From NCBI GenBank assembly GCA_937922675.1, contig CALAJN010000006.1, positions 62,001 to 126,000 on the forward strand: a DNA stretch of 64,000 bases, read 5' to 3'. This stretch comes from an uncultured Granulosicoccaceae bacterium. Lineage in GTDB: Bacteria > Pseudomonadota > Gammaproteobacteria > Granulosicoccales > Granulosicoccaceae. A program made the position numbers and the translations under genes. This document shows, one piece after another, positions 18,970 through 28,223 of this stretch (its first letter is position 1; each line of letters begins with the position of its first letter). The notes below the pieces were generated by a model that had not been told where the DNA came from, did no database searches, and was given only the letters and a program-made list of their open reading frames with translations.

Positions 18970-19004
18970 GGGCCTGTAGCGGGCCTGTTAGCGGACCTGT
19001 GAGC
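18970..19004. repeat. short imperfect tandem repeat, three copies
   Basis: Three consecutive units of 11-12 bases read GGGCCTGTAGC (18970-18980), GGGCCTGTTAGC (18981-18992) and GGACCTGTGAGC (18993-19004), and GGGCC begins a partial fourth. The array spans the last codons and stop of the DUF2256 gene and the short convergent gap before it. Its origin is probably local slippage. Confidence 0.6.
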
Positions 19005-19152
19005 GGGCCGCTCGTCTGCAGCGTTCTGAGCAGTACACGATGCTTTCCCACAAACCGCGGGCTGCCCACTTCTTGCGGTTCTCGAACGCCAGCCCGCACA
19101 CCGGGCAAATCTTGCTCTGGCGTACCGGTTTGTTGCGCCGTCGATCTGCCAT
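18988..19152 (-). CDS. DUF2256 zinc-ribbon protein, photolyase-associated
   Basis: A 54-residue basic protein with two cysteine pairs, ICPVC (Cys16, Cys19) and YCSERC (Cys41, Cys45), around FENRKKWAARGLWESIVY; this is the DUF2256 pattern. DUF2256 genes are often found next to cryptochrome/photolyase genes, but their role is unknown. The ATG at 19152 (MADRRRNKP) overlaps the stop of the upstream photolyase gene (TGATG), so the pair is translated together. A longer frame to 19233 exists but lies inside the photolyase gene. The basic composition and zinc ribbon are compatible with nucleic acid binding, which is inference. Confidence 0.8.
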   Translation of the reverse strand: MADRRRNKPVRQSKICPVCGLAFENRKKWAARGLWESIVYCSERCRRAARSQVR

Positions 19153-20270
19153 CAATAGCCGACGCTCCCTTTTACCTGTTTCCAGAAGGCAAAGAAGCTG
19201 TTGAATGACTTGTCGGGCAAGGGGTAGAGCCACGCGCGCTCTGTGACCGTTCCAGGCCAGTCATTACAGGCAGGGTACTCGCGGCGGACGACCTCATGGT
19301 TTGCCAGTCGCTCTGTCAAGTGTTCGGTCGTGCCTGTTGCCAGCACCGCGCCACAGCGCTCTGCCCAGTGCTTGATGAATGTCCATCGGTTCTCTGACAT
19401 CGGCCAGCGTTCGTGCAGCTCGCTATCAACAAATACGATGTGCTGTTCGATATCCCGTTGCCAGTGTGGATCCAGATTCCAGATGGAGTGAAGTGCCACT
19501 GGTGCACGGTCTGCAATGGAGAGATCCTGTATAGCCGTCAGGCTTGGTAGTGCAGCATACGTCGGTGCTGCTGGTTCAGCCAGCTTGGACGGTAGAGAGA
19601 CCTCAGGCAATTGTTCATAGCTGAGGTCGAGCCATGTGCCAGCTTGCTCACTGTCGGAGTAGCGATTGATATTGTCCTGGTTGGCAAGATATCGTTTGTT
19701 GCTGAACGTTCCGGCAACCCATTGCCAGCTCAAGGTATTGCTGGCCAAATCCCCATCCAGAAGGTGATAGTGCAACCAGCGCGCAGGCTCCAACCAGCGG
19801 GTGTGCGCCATATTGCAGGCGATAGCGGCAACCCACATGCGAGCGTGGTTGTGCATGGTGCCGTACTTGGTCAAATGCTGGATGCAAGCGTCTACTGCGT
19901 TGATTCCCGTAATGCCTTGTATCAGACCGGCGGGTGGTAGCTCATGCCTGACGCCGTGCTGTGGGCCACGCAAGTCAGAGAAGATGGCGTCACCCCGGTG
20001 TTGCCAGGTGCGATGAAAAAACTCGCGCCAGCCCAGTTCAAACAGCAAGCGATAGCAGGCATCGTCGGTGTGCCGGCTGCGTACAGCCTTGGCTACATCG
20101 GTCGTGGAGATCACACCATGTGCCAGAAACGGACCCAACCAGGTGGTCGCCCCTGCAAGGTAGTTGCGTGTTTTGTCGTAGGCTACGGGGTCGATCGAAT
20201 CAAGTCGCGCATGGATCTGTTCAAGCTCGACGCAAAAGTGATCTGGTCGAGGTGCAATGAGTGGGTTCAT
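19152..20270 (-). CDS. photolyase/cryptochrome-like FAD protein lacking the N-terminal antenna domain
   Basis: A 372-residue flavoprotein. Residues about 20-240 are the photolyase FAD-binding helical domain: ARNYLAGATTWLGPFLAHGVIS-like start, LFELGWREFFHRTW, HNHARMWVAAIACNM, and LLDGDLASNTLSWQWVAGTF. Unlike normal photolyases (about 450-500 aa), it begins directly with this domain and has no N-terminal alpha/beta antenna domain. Instead about 110 residues follow it (VALHSIWNL … IVFVDSELHERWP … FIKHWAERCGAVL), which look like a small alpha/beta domain. Some DNA repair or light-sensing function is likely, but the exact role is not known. It overlaps the DUF2256 gene and is divergent from a second photolyase-like gene. 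Confidence 0.8.
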   Translation of the reverse strand: MNPLIAPRPDHFCVELEQIHARLDSIDPVAYDKTRNYLAGATTWLGPFLAHGVISTTDVAKAVRSRHTDDACYRLLFELGWREFFHRTWQHRGDAIFSDLRGPQHGVRHELPPAGLIQGITGINAVDACIQHLTKYGTMHNHARMWVAAIACNMAHTRWLEPARWLHYHLLDGDLASNTLSWQWVAGTFSNKRYLANQDNINRYSDSEQAGTWLDLSYEQLPEVSLPSKLAEPAAPTYAALPSLTAIQDLSIADRAPVALHSIWNLDPHWQRDIEQHIVFVDSELHERWPMSENRWTFIKHWAERCGAVLATGTTEHLTERLANHEVVRREYPACNDWPGTVTERAWLYPLPDKSFNSFFAFWKQVKGSVGY

Positions 20271-20320
20271 GCCTTTTTTACGATCTATTGAGCCTGCTTG
20301 TGATCTTTCCTGACGCCCTT

Positions 20321-20339
20321 TCGTAAGCTTGCCTTACGA
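20321..20339. promoter_or_regulatory. palindrome between the two divergent photolyase-like genes
   Basis: TCGTAAG (20321-20327) and CTTACGA (20333-20339) make a perfect 7-bp inverted repeat around a five-base centre. It sits in the 120-bp region between the starts of the two divergent flavoprotein genes, 51 bases from each start codon. This symmetric placement suits a shared operator for a dimeric regulator. No clear sigma-70 promoter could be matched around it, and the regulator is unknown. Confidence 0.5.
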
Positions 20340-20390
20340 GCTACTGTATGTCCGGCCAAAGTGTGTCCAGCCAGAGAGTGATGTTTGCGC

Positions 20391-21881
20391 ATGTCGTGTG
20401 TAGCACTAGTGTTCCCGCATCAATTGTTCGAGTCATCACCGGCTGTGGATTCGTCCGTGGCAGCGGTGTGGATGGTCGAAGACAGCTTGTTTTTTGGGGA
20501 CGCTCGCTACCCGCTTCGCTTTCACAAGCAAAAATTGGCTTACCACCGGGCCACGATGGGTGCGTGGAAGCAGGCGCGCGAGGCCGAGGGATATACCGTG
20601 CACCTGAAAGCTTATAGCACAGGTAAATCTGCACTCCCGGAGTTGTTCGAGCAGCTGGCTGCCGATGGCCATGAGTGTGTGCAGCTTGCTGATCCGCATG
20701 ATTTCATCCTGACCAAGCGCTTGTCAGCGGCTGCGCAGTCTGCTGCGCTGCGTCTGCGCATTCTTGATACACCCGCCTTCATCAATAGCCCGAGCGACAA
20801 TCGAGATTGGCGGAGCAGCCGCAAGCGGTGGGCCATGAAGGACTTTTATGCGTGGCAACGTCAGCGCCTGGATATTCTGATGGATGGATCGGAGCCTGTC
20901 GGAGGAAAGTACAGCTTTGATGAAGACAATCGGCGCAAGCTTCCCAAGAAGGAAAAGGCACACCTACCGGCGCTCCCCGCAGTCACCGTAAGCGCTGCGA
21001 TCAGAACGGCCATGCAGAGCGTGGAGACCGAGTTTCCGGACAATCCAGGTTCCTTGACCCAGTGGTACCACCCGATCGATCGCAAGGGAGCTCTGGAGTG
21101 GTTGGATCGTTTCCTTGCTGAGCGCTTTGCTAAATTTGGTGCGTATGAGGATGCGATGGCATCCGGGGAGTCGTGGCTCTACCACGGTGTCTTGACGCCT
21201 ATGCTCAACACCGGTCTGCTGACACCCTCGGAAGTTGTAACAAAAGCGCTGGCTGCCGCTGACTCAGAGCAGATCCCCCTGAACAGCCTTGAGGGCTTTA
21301 TCCGGCAGATCATCGGCTGGCGCGAGTTCATGCGGGCGACCTATGATGATCTGGGGGTTGCCATGCGCACGACCAATCACTGGCAACACACCAGGCCGAT
21401 GCCTGGCGCACTGTATGACGGCACGACGGGCATCAAACCCATAGACGAGACCATTGAACGCATTCTGCAAACCGGTTATTGCCATCACATAGAGCGTCTG
21501 ATGATTCTGGGCGGTTTCATGTTTCTGTGTGAGATCGACCCAGACGCAATCTATGCCTGGTTCATGGAAATGTTTATCGATAGCTATGATTGGGTCATGG
21601 TGCCCAATGTCTACGCAATGAGTCAGCATGCCGACGGTGGGGCCATTACAACCAAGCCCTATTTTTCTGGATCCAACTATGTGCTCAAGATGAGCGACTA
21701 TGTCAAGGGCGAGTGGTGTATTACCTGGGACGCGCTGTTTTGGCGGTGGGTCATCAACAACAGCGATGCCTTGGCAGGTAATCCACGATGGTCAATGATG
21801 GTTGCGAACGCGCGCCGCATGCCGGACGAGAAAAAGCACGCTCACATAGACAAGGCTGAGCAATTCCTGAGGTCATTGTAG
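20391..21881 (+). CDS. PhrB/CryB-type photolyase-related protein without the iron-sulfur motif
   Basis: A 496-residue member of the bacterial photolyase-related family (DPRP; PhrB of Agrobacterium, CryB of Rhodobacter), whose characterised PhrB repairs (6-4) photoproducts. The start MSCVALVFPHQLFE and MVEDSLFFGDARYPLRFHKQKL match the antenna domain. The C-terminal half has GWREFMRATYDDL, YCHHIERLMILGGFM and the typical NVYAMSQHADGGAITTKPY. The next motif reads KMSDYVKGEWCITWDALFW (about 433-451), shorter than the cysteine-containing KMSDYCxxCRY…CPF loop of PhrB, so a 4Fe-4S cluster is probably absent. ATG at 20391 was chosen over a TTG two codons upstream. Confidence 0.85.
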   Translation: MSCVALVFPHQLFESSPAVDSSVAAVWMVEDSLFFGDARYPLRFHKQKLAYHRATMGAWKQAREAEGYTVHLKAYSTGKSALPELFEQLAADGHECVQLADPHDFILTKRLSAAAQSAALRLRILDTPAFINSPSDNRDWRSSRKRWAMKDFYAWQRQRLDILMDGSEPVGGKYSFDEDNRRKLPKKEKAHLPALPAVTVSAAIRTAMQSVETEFPDNPGSLTQWYHPIDRKGALEWLDRFLAERFAKFGAYEDAMASGESWLYHGVLTPMLNTGLLTPSEVVTKALAAADSEQIPLNSLEGFIRQIIGWREFMRATYDDLGVAMRTTNHWQHTRPMPGALYDGTTGIKPIDETIERILQTGYCHHIERLMILGGFMFLCEIDPDAIYAWFMEMFIDSYDWVMVPNVYAMSQHADGGAITTKPYFSGSNYVLKMSDYVKGEWCITWDALFWRWVINNSDALAGNPRWSMMVANARRMPDEKKHAHIDKAEQFLRSL

Positions 21882-24959: not shown

Positions 24960-26237
24960 ATGAACAGTTGTGAATCCATACAGTATTCAGAGGCGCGTGC
25001 GGTACCCGTCAAGCTGACCCGCAAACTCGCCATACTGGCGGATGCGGCCAAATACGATGCATCCTGCGCTTCCAGCGGCGCGCCGAGAAGAGACTCACTG
25101 GACGGGAAGGGTGTCGGCAGTAGCGAGGGCATGGGTATTTGTCATTCCTATACTCCTGACGGGCGATGTATCTCGCTACTCAAGGTCCTGCTGACCAACT
25201 TTTGCACTTTTGATTGCGTCTATTGCATCAACCGTGCATCCAGCAACGTGCCGCGTGCCCGCTTCGACGTCGACGAGCTGGTCAATCTGGTGCTGGCGTT
25301 CTACAAACGTAATTACATCGAGGGCCTGTTTCTCTCATCGGGAATCATTCAGACTCCTGACTACACGATGGAGCAGATCGTCGAGGTAGCCCGTCGATTG
25401 CGGGAGGTGCATGATTTTCGTGGCTACATTCACCTGAAAACCATTCCAGAGGCGTCGGCGGAGCTATTGCAGTCTGCTGGTCGTTATGCAGACCGCTTGT
25501 CCATCAACATCGAGTTGGCGCGGGATAGCAGCCTTACCGCCTTGGCGCCCGAGAAAGAGGCTGGTGGCATACGGCGTTCAATGGCAGCTATTCGGGTAAA
25601 GCTGGAAGAGAGTCGCGAGCGTTCGTTCCGTGGCCGCAAGTCAAACGACTTTACCGCCTCTGGCCAGAGTACCCAGATGATTGTTGGTGCAGACGATGCC
25701 AACGACAATGAGCTGTTGACATGTAGCACCTCACTTTATTCAGACTACCGTCTGAATCGCGTTTATTACTCGGCATTCAGCCCAATCCCCGATGCCAGCC
25801 CGGAGCTGCCGCCCGTGCCACCGGATCTAAATCGCGAGCACAGACTTTACCAGGCTGACTGGTTGTTGCGCTTCTATGGGTTCGATGTCGATGAGATCAT
25901 CTCGGGCGGTACAGCAGGGATGCTTGATCCATCATTGGATCCAAAATTGGCCTGGGCCATTCGCCATCGCGAGTGTTTTCCTGTCGACATTAATCGTGCT
26001 GATCGCGAGACGCTTCTGCGAGTGCCGGGCTTGGGTACTCGTGGGGTCGAGAAGGTACTGATCAGCAGGGGAAACTACCGCCTGCGTCTTGAGGATCTTG
26101 CGCGGCTGTGCGGCTCGGTCAAGCGCATGAAACCCTTTGTGGTTACGCGCGACTGGACGCCTGGAGCCATGCTGGATGCCACAGCCTTGCGTTCCAGCTT
26201 TTTGCAGCGTGATGCGCAATTGCCCTTGTTCGACTAG
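24960..26237 (+). CDS. putative DNA modification/repair radical SAM protein
   Basis: A 425-residue radical SAM enzyme. The cluster motif is CTFDCVYC (Cys82, Cys86, Cys89, spacing CX3CX2C), followed by INRASSNVPRARFDVDELV. The C-terminal part has helix-hairpin-helix DNA-binding elements, NRADRETLLRVPGLGTRGVEKVLISR (about 342-367). This combination defines the family annotated as putative DNA modification/repair radical SAM protein, which is linked by genome context to a second protein and to uracil-DNA-glycosylase domains; its reaction is not known. The partner gene starts three bases after the stop. The ATG at 24960 lacks a ribosome site. Confidence 0.9.
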   Translation: MNSCESIQYSEARAVPVKLTRKLAILADAAKYDASCASSGAPRRDSLDGKGVGSSEGMGICHSYTPDGRCISLLKVLLTNFCTFDCVYCINRASSNVPRARFDVDELVNLVLAFYKRNYIEGLFLSSGIIQTPDYTMEQIVEVARRLREVHDFRGYIHLKTIPEASAELLQSAGRYADRLSINIELARDSSLTALAPEKEAGGIRRSMAAIRVKLEESRERSFRGRKSNDFTASGQSTQMIVGADDANDNELLTCSTSLYSDYRLNRVYYSAFSPIPDASPELPPVPPDLNREHRLYQADWLLRFYGFDVDEIISGGTAGMLDPSLDPKLAWAIRHRECFPVDINRADRETLLRVPGLGTRGVEKVLISRGNYRLRLEDLARLCGSVKRMKPFVVTRDWTPGAMLDATALRSSFLQRDAQLPLFD

Positions 26238-26240
26238 ACA

Positions 26241-27062
26241 ATGAAAATCGTCAGACTCGACCGGCCGGATGATTTTGCAGGGTGGCGAGCAGCGGCTCGT
26301 GAACATGTCAGAGCAGGTACCCCTCCCGAAGATATCGTATGGCAACAGCCGTACGAACGGGATCTGTTTGCTGACAGCGAAGGTGAGACTTCGATAGGCC
26401 TGCCTGCGCGCTACCGCATACCGACGGTGCCGCGTTCCTTTGTCGATCTTGCCGAGCGAGTGGTCTGTCATCAGGCTACTGATCGGTTTGCACGGCTCTA
26501 TCGTGTGCTGTGGCGGGTAGCGGTGGGAGGCGAGCAGGGCCTCTGGACGCGGTTTTCTGATCCTGACATGCACTATCTGCACACCTTGGGTAAGAACGTG
26601 GCTCGTGAGCGCCACAAAATGCATGCCTTCGTCAGATTTCGGCAAACCCCACCCGCAGGTCACGAGCATTTTCATGCCTGGTTTGAGCCGGAGCATCACA
26701 CGTTGCGTTTGTCTGTGCCCTTTTTTGTCAGGCGCTTTGCCAACATGCATTGGTCAATCGTTACACCCGCCGAGAGCGCACATTGGGACGGCAGTAAGCT
26801 GGTCTTTGGCCCCGGGGGGCAGAGGTGTTCAGGGCCTGAGGATGATGCCTTTGAACCGCTGTGGCGTACCTATTTTTCCAGTATTTTTAACCCGGCAAGG
26901 CTCATGGTAGATGCCATGCAGTCCGAGATGCCAGTCAGGTACTGGAAAAACATGCCGGAAGGAGAGCTGATCCAGGCGCTCGTTGGCGATGCTGGTTCAC
27001 GTACAGCATCCATGCTTGCTGCAGGACAGTCACCTGCAGCGCCGCAGCGCTCTGATCAATAG
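26241..27062 (+). CDS. radical-SAM-linked DNA metabolism protein lacking a UDG domain
   Basis: A 273-residue protein of the family (TIGR03915 type, from memory) that always accompanies the radical SAM protein upstream. Recognisable stretches are DLAERVVCHQATDRFARLYRVLWR, TLGKNVARERHKMHAFVRFR, FFVRRFANMHWSIVTP and RYWKNMPEGELIQALV. In many Proteobacteria the same protein continues into a uracil-DNA-glycosylase-family domain after this KNMPE segment. Here it stops about 30 residues later, and no glycosylase-like sequence follows in any plus-strand frame. Stand-alone forms are known elsewhere. It starts three bases after the radical SAM gene and converges on a small exported-protein gene. Confidence 0.85.
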   Translation: MKIVRLDRPDDFAGWRAAAREHVRAGTPPEDIVWQQPYERDLFADSEGETSIGLPARYRIPTVPRSFVDLAERVVCHQATDRFARLYRVLWRVAVGGEQGLWTRFSDPDMHYLHTLGKNVARERHKMHAFVRFRQTPPAGHEHFHAWFEPEHHTLRLSVPFFVRRFANMHWSIVTPAESAHWDGSKLVFGPGGQRCSGPEDDAFEPLWRTYFSSIFNPARLMVDAMQSEMPVRYWKNMPEGELIQALVGDAGSRTASMLAAGQSPAAPQRSDQ

Positions 27063-27441: not shown

Positions 27442-27857
27442 CGTCTGTCACTCTGTGTTGGCAGTGAATGGATGTCATCGTCCCGCCCAGCGAGTTGTTA
27501 TCGAGCAATGTGGCGCTGGTGGTCTGGCCCTCTATCGCTAACGACGGCCTTTCGAGAGTCGCCAGCATCTGGTAACCCGCTGTTGCTGGCCTTTGGAGCA
27601 TTCAACATGTGGCATCGCAAGCCCGATTAGAGGGCTGTCAGCGAGGGTTTCAGACTCTTTGCGGGGTAGGGTCACCTCCGCCTGCCAAGGTGTGCGCTGG
27701 GTCCGGGGTGCCAGTTGGATTTCGGGGGGGGGGGGGGGCTGGATAGCCAATTGCGGGCAATCAGCCTAAAGTCGAGTGGCGGTTGACCACGAAAATAACG
27801 TGCGTAATGGGGTACGTTCTACTTGCGGGTGGGCACATAGATAGCCGGAGCAAGAGC
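27442..27857. other. 416-bp intergenic region with a poly-G tract
   Basis: No coding frame in this stretch shows protein-like character. It lies between the divergent starts of the small exported-protein gene and yajD, so it must hold both promoters. Its notable element is a 15-base G run. A weak promoter-like pair, TTGACC (27783-27788) and TAATGG (27805-27810) with 16-bp spacing, points toward yajD. A GGAGCAAGAGC ribosome site lies just before the yajD ATG. Confidence 0.5.
27724..27738 (+). repeat. homopolymeric tract of 15 G
   Basis: An uninterrupted run of 15 G, 119 bases upstream of the yajD start and 45 bases upstream of a weak promoter-like pair. It is not inside any credible gene. Runs of this length are prone to replication slippage and to sequencing length error. 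Confidence 0.9.
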
Positions 27858-28223
27858 ATGAAAAAAACAGGAAGTCTTGATACGGAAAAACTTGATCGGC
27901 TCGTGGCTACAGCCCGAAAGGATTACGCCTCACGTGAGGAGGGTTACCGCCAAAGGGCACTCAAGCAATATCCTTGGGTGTGTGGTCGATGCATGCGTGA
28001 GTTTGATCACAGCAACGTTCGCGAGCTCACCGTGCATCACCGTGATCATGACCACGACAACAACCCGGAGGACGGCAGCAACTGGGAGCTGCTGTGCGTG
28101 TTTTGCCATGACAATGAACACCAACGGTATGTTGAGCAACCGACTGACGGGGATGATCGATCGGTGAAAACTGCCACCCACAATCCGTTTGGAGATCTCA
28201 AGGACCTGCTGAACAGGCCATAG
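27858..28223 (+). CDS. yajD: YajD-family HNH nuclease
   Basis: A 121-residue cytoplasmic protein. It has zinc-binding cysteine pairs CGRC (Cys42, Cys45) and CVFC (Cys80, Cys83), with the HNH core between and after them: ELTVHHRDHDHDNNPEDGSNWELLCVFCHDNEH, in which His60/His61, Asn76 and His84 supply the HNH residues. The C-terminal NPFGDLKDLL is also typical of YajD. Substrate and role are not established. The ATG at 27858 has a good ribosome site (GGAGCAAGAGC); a frame open from 27783 adds residues without similarity. Confidence 0.88.
   Translation: MKKTGSLDTEKLDRLVATARKDYASREEGYRQRALKQYPWVCGRCMREFDHSNVRELTVHHRDHDHDNNPEDGSNWELLCVFCHDNEHQRYVEQPTDGDDRSVKTATHNPFGDLKDLLNRP

Follow-up and report, generated by a model that had tools for sequence, protein, structure and literature searches.

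To our knowledge, photolyases have generally been treated as stand-alone enzymes. Two unusual groups among them form the background to the locus described here, and the first of these, the NewPHL/SPL photolyases, was reportedly described by Emmerich (2020) and Xu (2021). Characterized NewPHLs come from D. shibae and M. mesophilicum, and the accessions A8LJA9 and M7YZC8 are given for characterized members (PMC13274461). Members of this class are described as having the flavin adenine dinucleotide (FAD) domain first and a short alpha/beta domain last (PMC9426592, PMC13274461, PMC9178010), and Phr4/Phr5 and Phr6 of marine Synechococcus and Cyanobium also have reversed domains and sit near the NewPHL-type Phr7 (PMC9426592). 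The second group is the DPRP family of prokaryotic (6-4) photolyases, which includes PhrB and the FeS-BCP class with its four-cysteine [4Fe-4S] iron-sulfur (Fe-S) site. In PhrB, W342 and W390 carry electrons, roles are described for W390, H366, L370, M410, Y424, and Y430, and repair is abolished by H366N and Y424F (PMC4619345). A family of small proteins, DUF2256 (PF10013), has been assigned to the TRASH clan (PMC4047054) and counted among the domains of unknown function that are frequent in small bacterial proteins (PMC11796252). Relatives of all three groups are encoded side by side in the DNA analyzed here, a window of 64,000 nucleotides from an uncultured Granulosicoccaceae bacterium (assembly GCA_937922675.1, contig CALAJN010000006.1, positions 62,001 to 126,000), and we consider that they probably form a photoreactivation cassette, in which a reversed photolyase of the cyclobutane pyrimidine dimer (CPD) type and an Fe-S-free (6-4)-type photolyase would have the DUF2256 protein as an accessory. 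The features of the locus, with positions counted in the window, are the following.

18988..19152, minus strand: DUF2256 protein, 54 residues (PF10013, E 3.6e-14, 53 bits against a curated cut-off of 25).
19150..19154, minus strand: TGATG, the stop of the 372-residue photolyase gene and the start of the DUF2256 gene, with one base in common (from the sequence).
19152..20270, minus strand: photolyase of apparent reversed topology, NewPHL/SPL-like, 372 residues (PF03441, E 3e-23, residues 77-194).
19152..19514, minus strand: its C-terminal alpha/beta domain, residues ~253-372, like the antenna domain that ordinary photolyases have at their N-terminus (AlphaFold2 and VIA-align).
19566..20270, minus strand: its N-terminal FAD/catalytic domain, residues ~1-235 (VIA-align, Z 16.3 to 1iqr).
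19719..19757, minus strand: its flavin/lesion motif D172-G-D-L-A-S-N178-T-L-S-W182-Q-W184 (alignment of 50 proteins).
20321..20339, no strand: palindrome TCGTAAG-CTTGC-CTTACGA, not conserved (from the sequence).
20391..21881, plus strand: Fe-S-less protein of the DPRP (prokaryotic (6-4) photolyase) family, 496 residues (PF04244, E 7.7e-48).
21438..21440, plus strand: P350, where PhrB has the Fe-S ligand C350 (alignment to PhrB).
21483..21488, plus strand: H365-H366, of which H366 is the essential repair residue in PhrB (alignment to PhrB; PMC4619345).
21702..21719, plus strand: V438-K-G-E-W-C443, without the loop that carries C438-x2-C441 in PhrB (HMMER alignment).

The identities of the three genes are confirmed by Pfam, which finds a DUF2256 protein, a protein with FAD_binding_7 as its only match, and a DPRP protein; an earlier note made from the letters of the window had proposed a photolyase/cryptochrome locus with DUF2256 here. 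Its description of a photolyase gene overlapping the DUF2256 gene is also correct, the overlap being the single base shared within TGATG on the minus strand, an arrangement that may couple their translation. The host genome, 3.63 Mb in size, encodes a classical photolyase at another place (G000:C9; labels beginning with G or L are ours for genomes and loci). Clustering of the cassette genes is conserved. A search of 57 genomes, the host among them, finds the 372-residue type of enzyme in 23. The counts for the host family refer to a set of 36 genomes, where the reversed enzyme is present in 23 (one of them a fragment at a contig end), the Fe-S-less enzyme in 25, and both in 18. The two photolyase genes are divergent neighbors in 13 of these 18 genomes; in the other five (G002, G016, G021, G023, and G025) they are not on one stretch, and the reversed-enzyme copy of G016 lies at a contig end. 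Of the 21 genomes that have both DUF2256 and the reversed enzyme, 17 have the two side by side. A wider view comes from the named loci, which are the best 80 of 474 confirmed homologues of the reversed enzyme and include full-length proteins labeled Granulosicoccaceae, Bacteroidota, Acidobacteriota, and Verrucomicrobiota. At 41 of the 80, a DPRP gene is no more than 3.5 kb away, in opposite orientation at 14 and in the same orientation at 27, and DUF2256 is within that distance at 25. Where 3 kb is available on both sides (55 loci), DPRP is found in 28, DUF2256 in 17, and neither in 22. In Bacteroidota the two photolyase genes are together and co-directional. That the arrangement differs between groups while the linkage stays argues for selection on togetherness. 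Set against this is the co-occurrence of the reversed and Fe-S-less enzymes within the host family, which taken alone does not reach significance (p 0.15). The divergent pair in 13 of 18 genomes, the linked DPRP gene in 41 of 80 loci, and the tie of DUF2256 to the photolyase type discussed below support the earlier suggestion of a conserved unit.

The association of DUF2256 with photolyases is the newest part of these findings, and it is statistical. The window protein matches PF10013 above its cut-off and carries the signature C16-x2-C19 ... C41-x3-C45, a zinc-ribbon-like CxxC...CxxxC pattern that may bind zinc and whose four cysteines are invariant in 21 aligned homologues. It shares the cysteine pattern and the Pfam match with other DUF2256 proteins and differs from them in form: the proteins of host-family cassettes read NRKKW..RGLW with a two-residue insert (11 of 21 rows), whereas the others read WRKKW...W (10 of 21; noted for the window, L047, and L133). 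Profile searches gave no convincing relative in the PDB, the best match having E 0.0027 over 20 positions. Among 397 Pseudomonadota genomes, DUF2256 is present in 118, DPRP in 119, and both in 101, against 35.4 expected (Fisher p 1.6e-56). Caulobacter vibrioides gave matches to both families in the control search. No more than 18 initial candidates per genome were scored for DUF2256 in this set, and no more than 105 in the host-family set, so some absences may be false. Expressed by genome type, DUF2256 accompanies DPRP in 101 of 119 genomes (85%), occurs in 11 of 83 (13%) with another FAD-domain match but without DPRP, and in 6 of 195 (3%) with neither. The tie also holds within families: in the 19 that are mixed for DPRP, which are all the mixed families among 223 listed genomes (the other 174 have no DUF2256 or DPRP match), 87 of the 100 genomes having DPRP also carry DUF2256, against 14 of the 58 that have no DPRP (Mantel-Haenszel odds ratio 30, p 6e-12). 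Nine hand-picked families give an odds ratio of 61, and the ten further mixed families, several of which run against the tie, bring it to 30.

The reversed enzyme shows a similar company. In a rank cut of 29 genomes with reversed- or short-type enzymes (L188-L215, 28 rows, plus the window, leaving out the classical row L216 and lower rows), DUF2256 is present in 29 and DPRP in 28, with either within 5 kb in only 4; L189 and L190 show the FAD part only, so that not each of the 29 need be reversed. A second set of 34 genomes was picked for the window type of enzyme and has DUF2256 in 33 and a DPRP match in 25. Thirty of its members come from the 39 loci that have no DPRP gene closer than 3.5 kb, and the other four, L112, L130, L133, and L184, do have one; eight of the nine loci of the first kind that lie outside the set are labeled Granulosicoccaceae or Granulosicoccus, and at least one genome, G453, seems identical to one of the earlier set, G029. 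All six Hymenobacter genomes have the reversed enzyme and DUF2256 with no DPRP match, and G005, G006, G033, and G035 in turn have DUF2256 and lack the reversed enzyme. The tie is thus seen both without DPRP and without the reversed enzyme. Photolyases go unmentioned in the passages on DUF2256 of PMC11796252 and PMC4047054, the two papers found for it in the open literature, which was the only literature searched, and a search there on photolyases together with a zinc ribbon, a gene neighborhood, and a small protein listed nothing relevant. The genome-level tie suggests a function for a widespread protein family and offers a direct and cheap test of the role of DUF2256. We propose that this role is that of a zinc-ribbon accessory for such photolyases, which would help to fold or load the enzyme or would bind DNA or protein at the lesion. 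A stronger version, which we hold only tentatively, makes DUF2256 a dedicated and perhaps physical partner that prokaryotic (6-4)-type and reversed photolyases need for maturation or lesion presentation, so that the cassette would encode a multi-protein photorepair machine in place of stand-alone enzymes.

Several observations pull away from an accessory role. Of the 101 genomes with both, only 50 have DUF2256 and DPRP no more than 5 kb apart; 18 of 119 DPRP genomes have no DUF2256; and among the 118 genomes with DUF2256, 6 show no DPRP and no other FAD-domain match. Within the mixed families, the 14 of 58 genomes mentioned above carry DUF2256 without DPRP, and two host-family genomes, G014 (98% complete) and G018 (99% complete), give a DPRP match but none for DUF2256. 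On plasmids, an annotated photolyase is present in only two of eight DUF2256 neighborhoods viewed (of 42 plasmid records matched), those of Vibrio parahaemolyticus and Rhizobium rhododendri. The half of the DUF2256-DPRP pairs that are more than 5 kb apart and the six plasmid neighborhoods without an annotated photolyase would suit an explanation in which DUF2256 is only co-regulated, as part of a broad response to light or oxidative stress, with no action on photolyases. We consider this somewhat unlikely, because DUF2256 tracks DPRP rather than photolyases at large, within families as well, and because it stays in all six Hymenobacter genomes, which have the reversed enzyme and no DPRP match. 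A link between the cassette and a known light regulon, sought in a list of papers, was not established.

The 372-residue enzyme has an N-terminal FAD-binding catalytic domain, a trait of the NewPHL/SPL class, according to both Pfam and VIA-align. The AlphaFold2 model of the full protein has a mean predicted local distance difference test score (pLDDT) of 96.5 and a predicted template modeling score (pTM) of 0.93, and residues 8-226 of it fit 172-411 of the 1iqr chain with Z 16.3 and a root-mean-square deviation (rmsd) of 2.5 over 213 aligned residues. The family alignment shows a conserved region of ~120 residues past the FAD domain. The VIA-align comparison of the full model covers almost the FAD domain alone; residues 240-372, which give pLDDT 94.7 when modeled by themselves, fit residues 2-164 of 6dd6 (PhrB) in order (Z 5.9, rmsd 2.9, 117 of 133 aligned). 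Photolyase N-terminal domains make up 14 of the 16 VIA-align rows with Z of at least 5 for this C-terminal domain, with all Z values below 8, and some rows reach nearly full length while others end at model residue 107. Two comparisons speak against a photolyase-like C-terminal domain: a Foldseek search with it yielded nothing at E <= 0.001, and the 50 matches listed include no photolyase, and a profile comparison with the DPRP N-terminal domain was not significant (probability 2.9%). Given these middling Z values, the Foldseek result without photolyases, and the failed profile comparison, we go no further than to call the modeled order, FAD domain first and alpha/beta domain last, likely. Reversed photolyases are already in print (PMC9426592), and the order itself is a known type.

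The 372-residue enzyme has residues of the CPD type. D172, D174, A176, N178, S181, W182, Q183, and W184 are invariant in 50 aligned proteins, as are W81 and R82, and E78 and M145 are kept in at least 90% of them. We take E78, W81, R82, M145, N178, W182, and W184 to be the counterparts of E274, W277, R278, M345, N378, W382, and W384 of E. coli photolyase, a correspondence derived by hand from the 1dnp alignment ranges. The enzyme would most likely repair CPDs, with light exciting its reduced FAD and an electron passing to the dimer, and it perhaps prefers single-stranded DNA, as published for NewPHLs. By sequence, it seems to belong to a distinct clade of the known reversed type. The NewPHL/SPL class, known here by description and through alphaproteobacterial stand-ins, has a domain order like the one that is likely for the window protein. 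These NewPHL-like stand-ins, of ~370-430 residues, have the HNHxRMW and DGDxASNTLSW motifs in common with the window clade and form a separate clade, and matches to them break off ahead of the C-terminal domain or shortly after its beginning. A tree of 61 FAD domains gives the window clade, with 27 rows, a support of 84/95, which is below the tool's mark for firm support, the alphaproteobacterial NewPHL-like clade stands apart from it (98/99), and a third group includes a Deinococcus protein (95/90). The tree gives no firm order among the three, and the tool warns of long branches. Phr4/Phr5 and Phr6, compared by description, have the reversed order as well; they carry four Fe-S cysteines (PMC9426592), whereas the alignment of 50 window-clade proteins has no cysteine that is invariant or kept in 90% of them. 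As a separate observation, a Pseudomonadota genome of another class (L190, G071) encodes a short-type protein with a cysteine-rich stretch after the FAD domain, which recalls the Fe-S type Phr4/Phr6 described in cyanobacteria.

The best PDB match of the 496-residue protein is PhrB (5kcm, E 6.1e-76, query residues 34-496). Family homology together with H366 and Y424 places it in the DPRP family in the wide sense, and alignment to PhrB shows that H365, H366, L370, W390, M410, Y424, and Y430 are all kept. The Fe-S ligands are not: C350 is replaced by P and C438 by V, and C441 is deleted with its loop. C443 of the window protein falls opposite C454 of PhrB in the HMMER alignment, in a column with S, Q, T, A, or C in relatives; in the MAFFT alignments the fourth ligand column is at least one residue away and has cysteine in four Fe-S-type rows only. 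With C350, C438, and C441 lost and C454 alone having a counterpart, the protein lacks the four-cysteine [4Fe-4S] site of FeS-BCP and does not belong to that class. By alignment, it is an Fe-S-less relative of the known (6-4) photolyases, sharing with PhrB and FeS-BCP the family and the repair residues and differing in the missing ligands and CxxC loop. The earlier note held that neither cassette protein is a textbook CPD photolyase, and the apparent reversed order of one and the Fe-S-less DPRP character of the other bear this out. The loss is widespread in a 71-row DPRP alignment, which holds some genomes twice: P stands at position 350 in 65 rows, all four cysteines are present in four (G052, G029, G027, and L112), and 67 lack the full set, three of which are partial. 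A phylum sample of 33 DPRP rows (L189, L199, L202, and L247-L276) has the Fe-S pattern in all 31 readable rows, two being truncated, and 30 of these loci were chosen as best by family score and are hence biased to the Fe-S type. A single-cysteine label for L291 and L292 came from a loose pattern and is not relied on. The Fe-S-less proteins also include a sub-lineage (L096, L105, L095, and L051, from G015, G020, G022, and G005) without ~28 inter-domain residues (query 197-226). PromaPL and "subgroup M" of the prokaryotic 6-4 photolyases are by their description also Fe-S-less members of the DPRP family, and the account of them in the passages of PMC9178010 consulted makes no mention of a cassette with DUF2256 and a reversed photolyase.

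Three points count against an Fe-S-free (6-4) photolyase in the cassette. Of the 41 DPRP genes linked to a reversed photolyase at up to 3.5 kb, one (L112) keeps all four cysteines, and one (L126) ends before the loop. Two residues differ from PhrB, W342 being Y and Y391 being F, so photoreduction may differ from that of PhrB. Cysteine mutants of the PhrB Fe-S site were insoluble or without expression (PMC4619345), and an Fe-S-free enzyme would thus need compensation. The cassette pairs two non-standard photolyases, one apparently reversed and one Fe-S-free, in more than one phylum and bears on how an Fe-S cluster can be dispensed with. The 496-residue enzyme would most likely repair (6-4) photoproducts through H366. 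It is doubtful that it instead repairs CPDs, leaving both cassette enzymes with one lesion: the authors of the picocyanobacterial study suggested CPD repair for the Fe-S-less Phr2 (PMC9426592), but H366 is kept in the window protein, and in PhrB its change to Asn, the CPD-photolyase counterpart, abolishes (6-4) repair (PMC4619345). It is improbable that this protein or both enzymes serve as light sensors of the cryptochrome kind and control genes instead of repairing DNA. Although R. sphaeroides CryB of the same family is reported to have cryptochrome functions as well (PMC9178010) and the window protein has lost its Fe-S ligands and altered its electron chain, the PhrB residues essential for (6-4) repair are kept, DUF2256 is followed by a classical photolyase at 5 of the 13 loci looked at (Pfam checked on two; several of the 13 contigs end nearby), and no regulator or kinase was found among the neighboring window genes scanned. 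The earlier note had left the choice between a repair and a signaling unit open; the kept residues and the classical photolyases favor repair, and signaling has no positive evidence.

The palindrome between the divergent genes was considered as a shared regulatory site and rejected. It is present roughly midway, as the earlier note described, with the two start codons 50 and 51 bp away rather than 51 each. The note further proposed to test whether TCGTAAG-N5-CTTACGA is conserved upstream of orthologues. Spacers of the divergent pair measure 13-120 bp in 13 genomes, host included, and none of the other 12 has the palindrome or a comparable inverted repeat, the longest arms being 5. The exact motif occurs in 2 of the 57 genomes, once each in the host and in G020, where the copy is on a contig other than that of the cassette. 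When this spacer is shuffled 2000 times, an inverted repeat of 7+7 with a loop of at most 12 arises in 80 cases, and 49 of the 533 tiles of 120 bp that make up the window hold one. Equally good repeats in shuffles and tiles and the absence from the other spacers mean that the palindrome is no evidence for a regulated unit.

Some contigs with the cassette or parts of it are labeled Candidatus Gracilibacteria (L123, L127, and L184), and transfer of the genes to a recoded bacterium was considered for them and dropped. In L123 and L127 the photolyase gene has TGA as its stop codon, and L184, with a GC content of 0.60, is 96% coding under translation table 11; the labels are probably wrong. About 3 kb past the cassette in the window, at 24960-27062, lies a putative DNA repair pair of a radical S-adenosylmethionine (SAM) protein (TIGR03916) and its TIGR03915 partner, and this pair is followed by a YajD-type HNH nuclease at 27783-28223.

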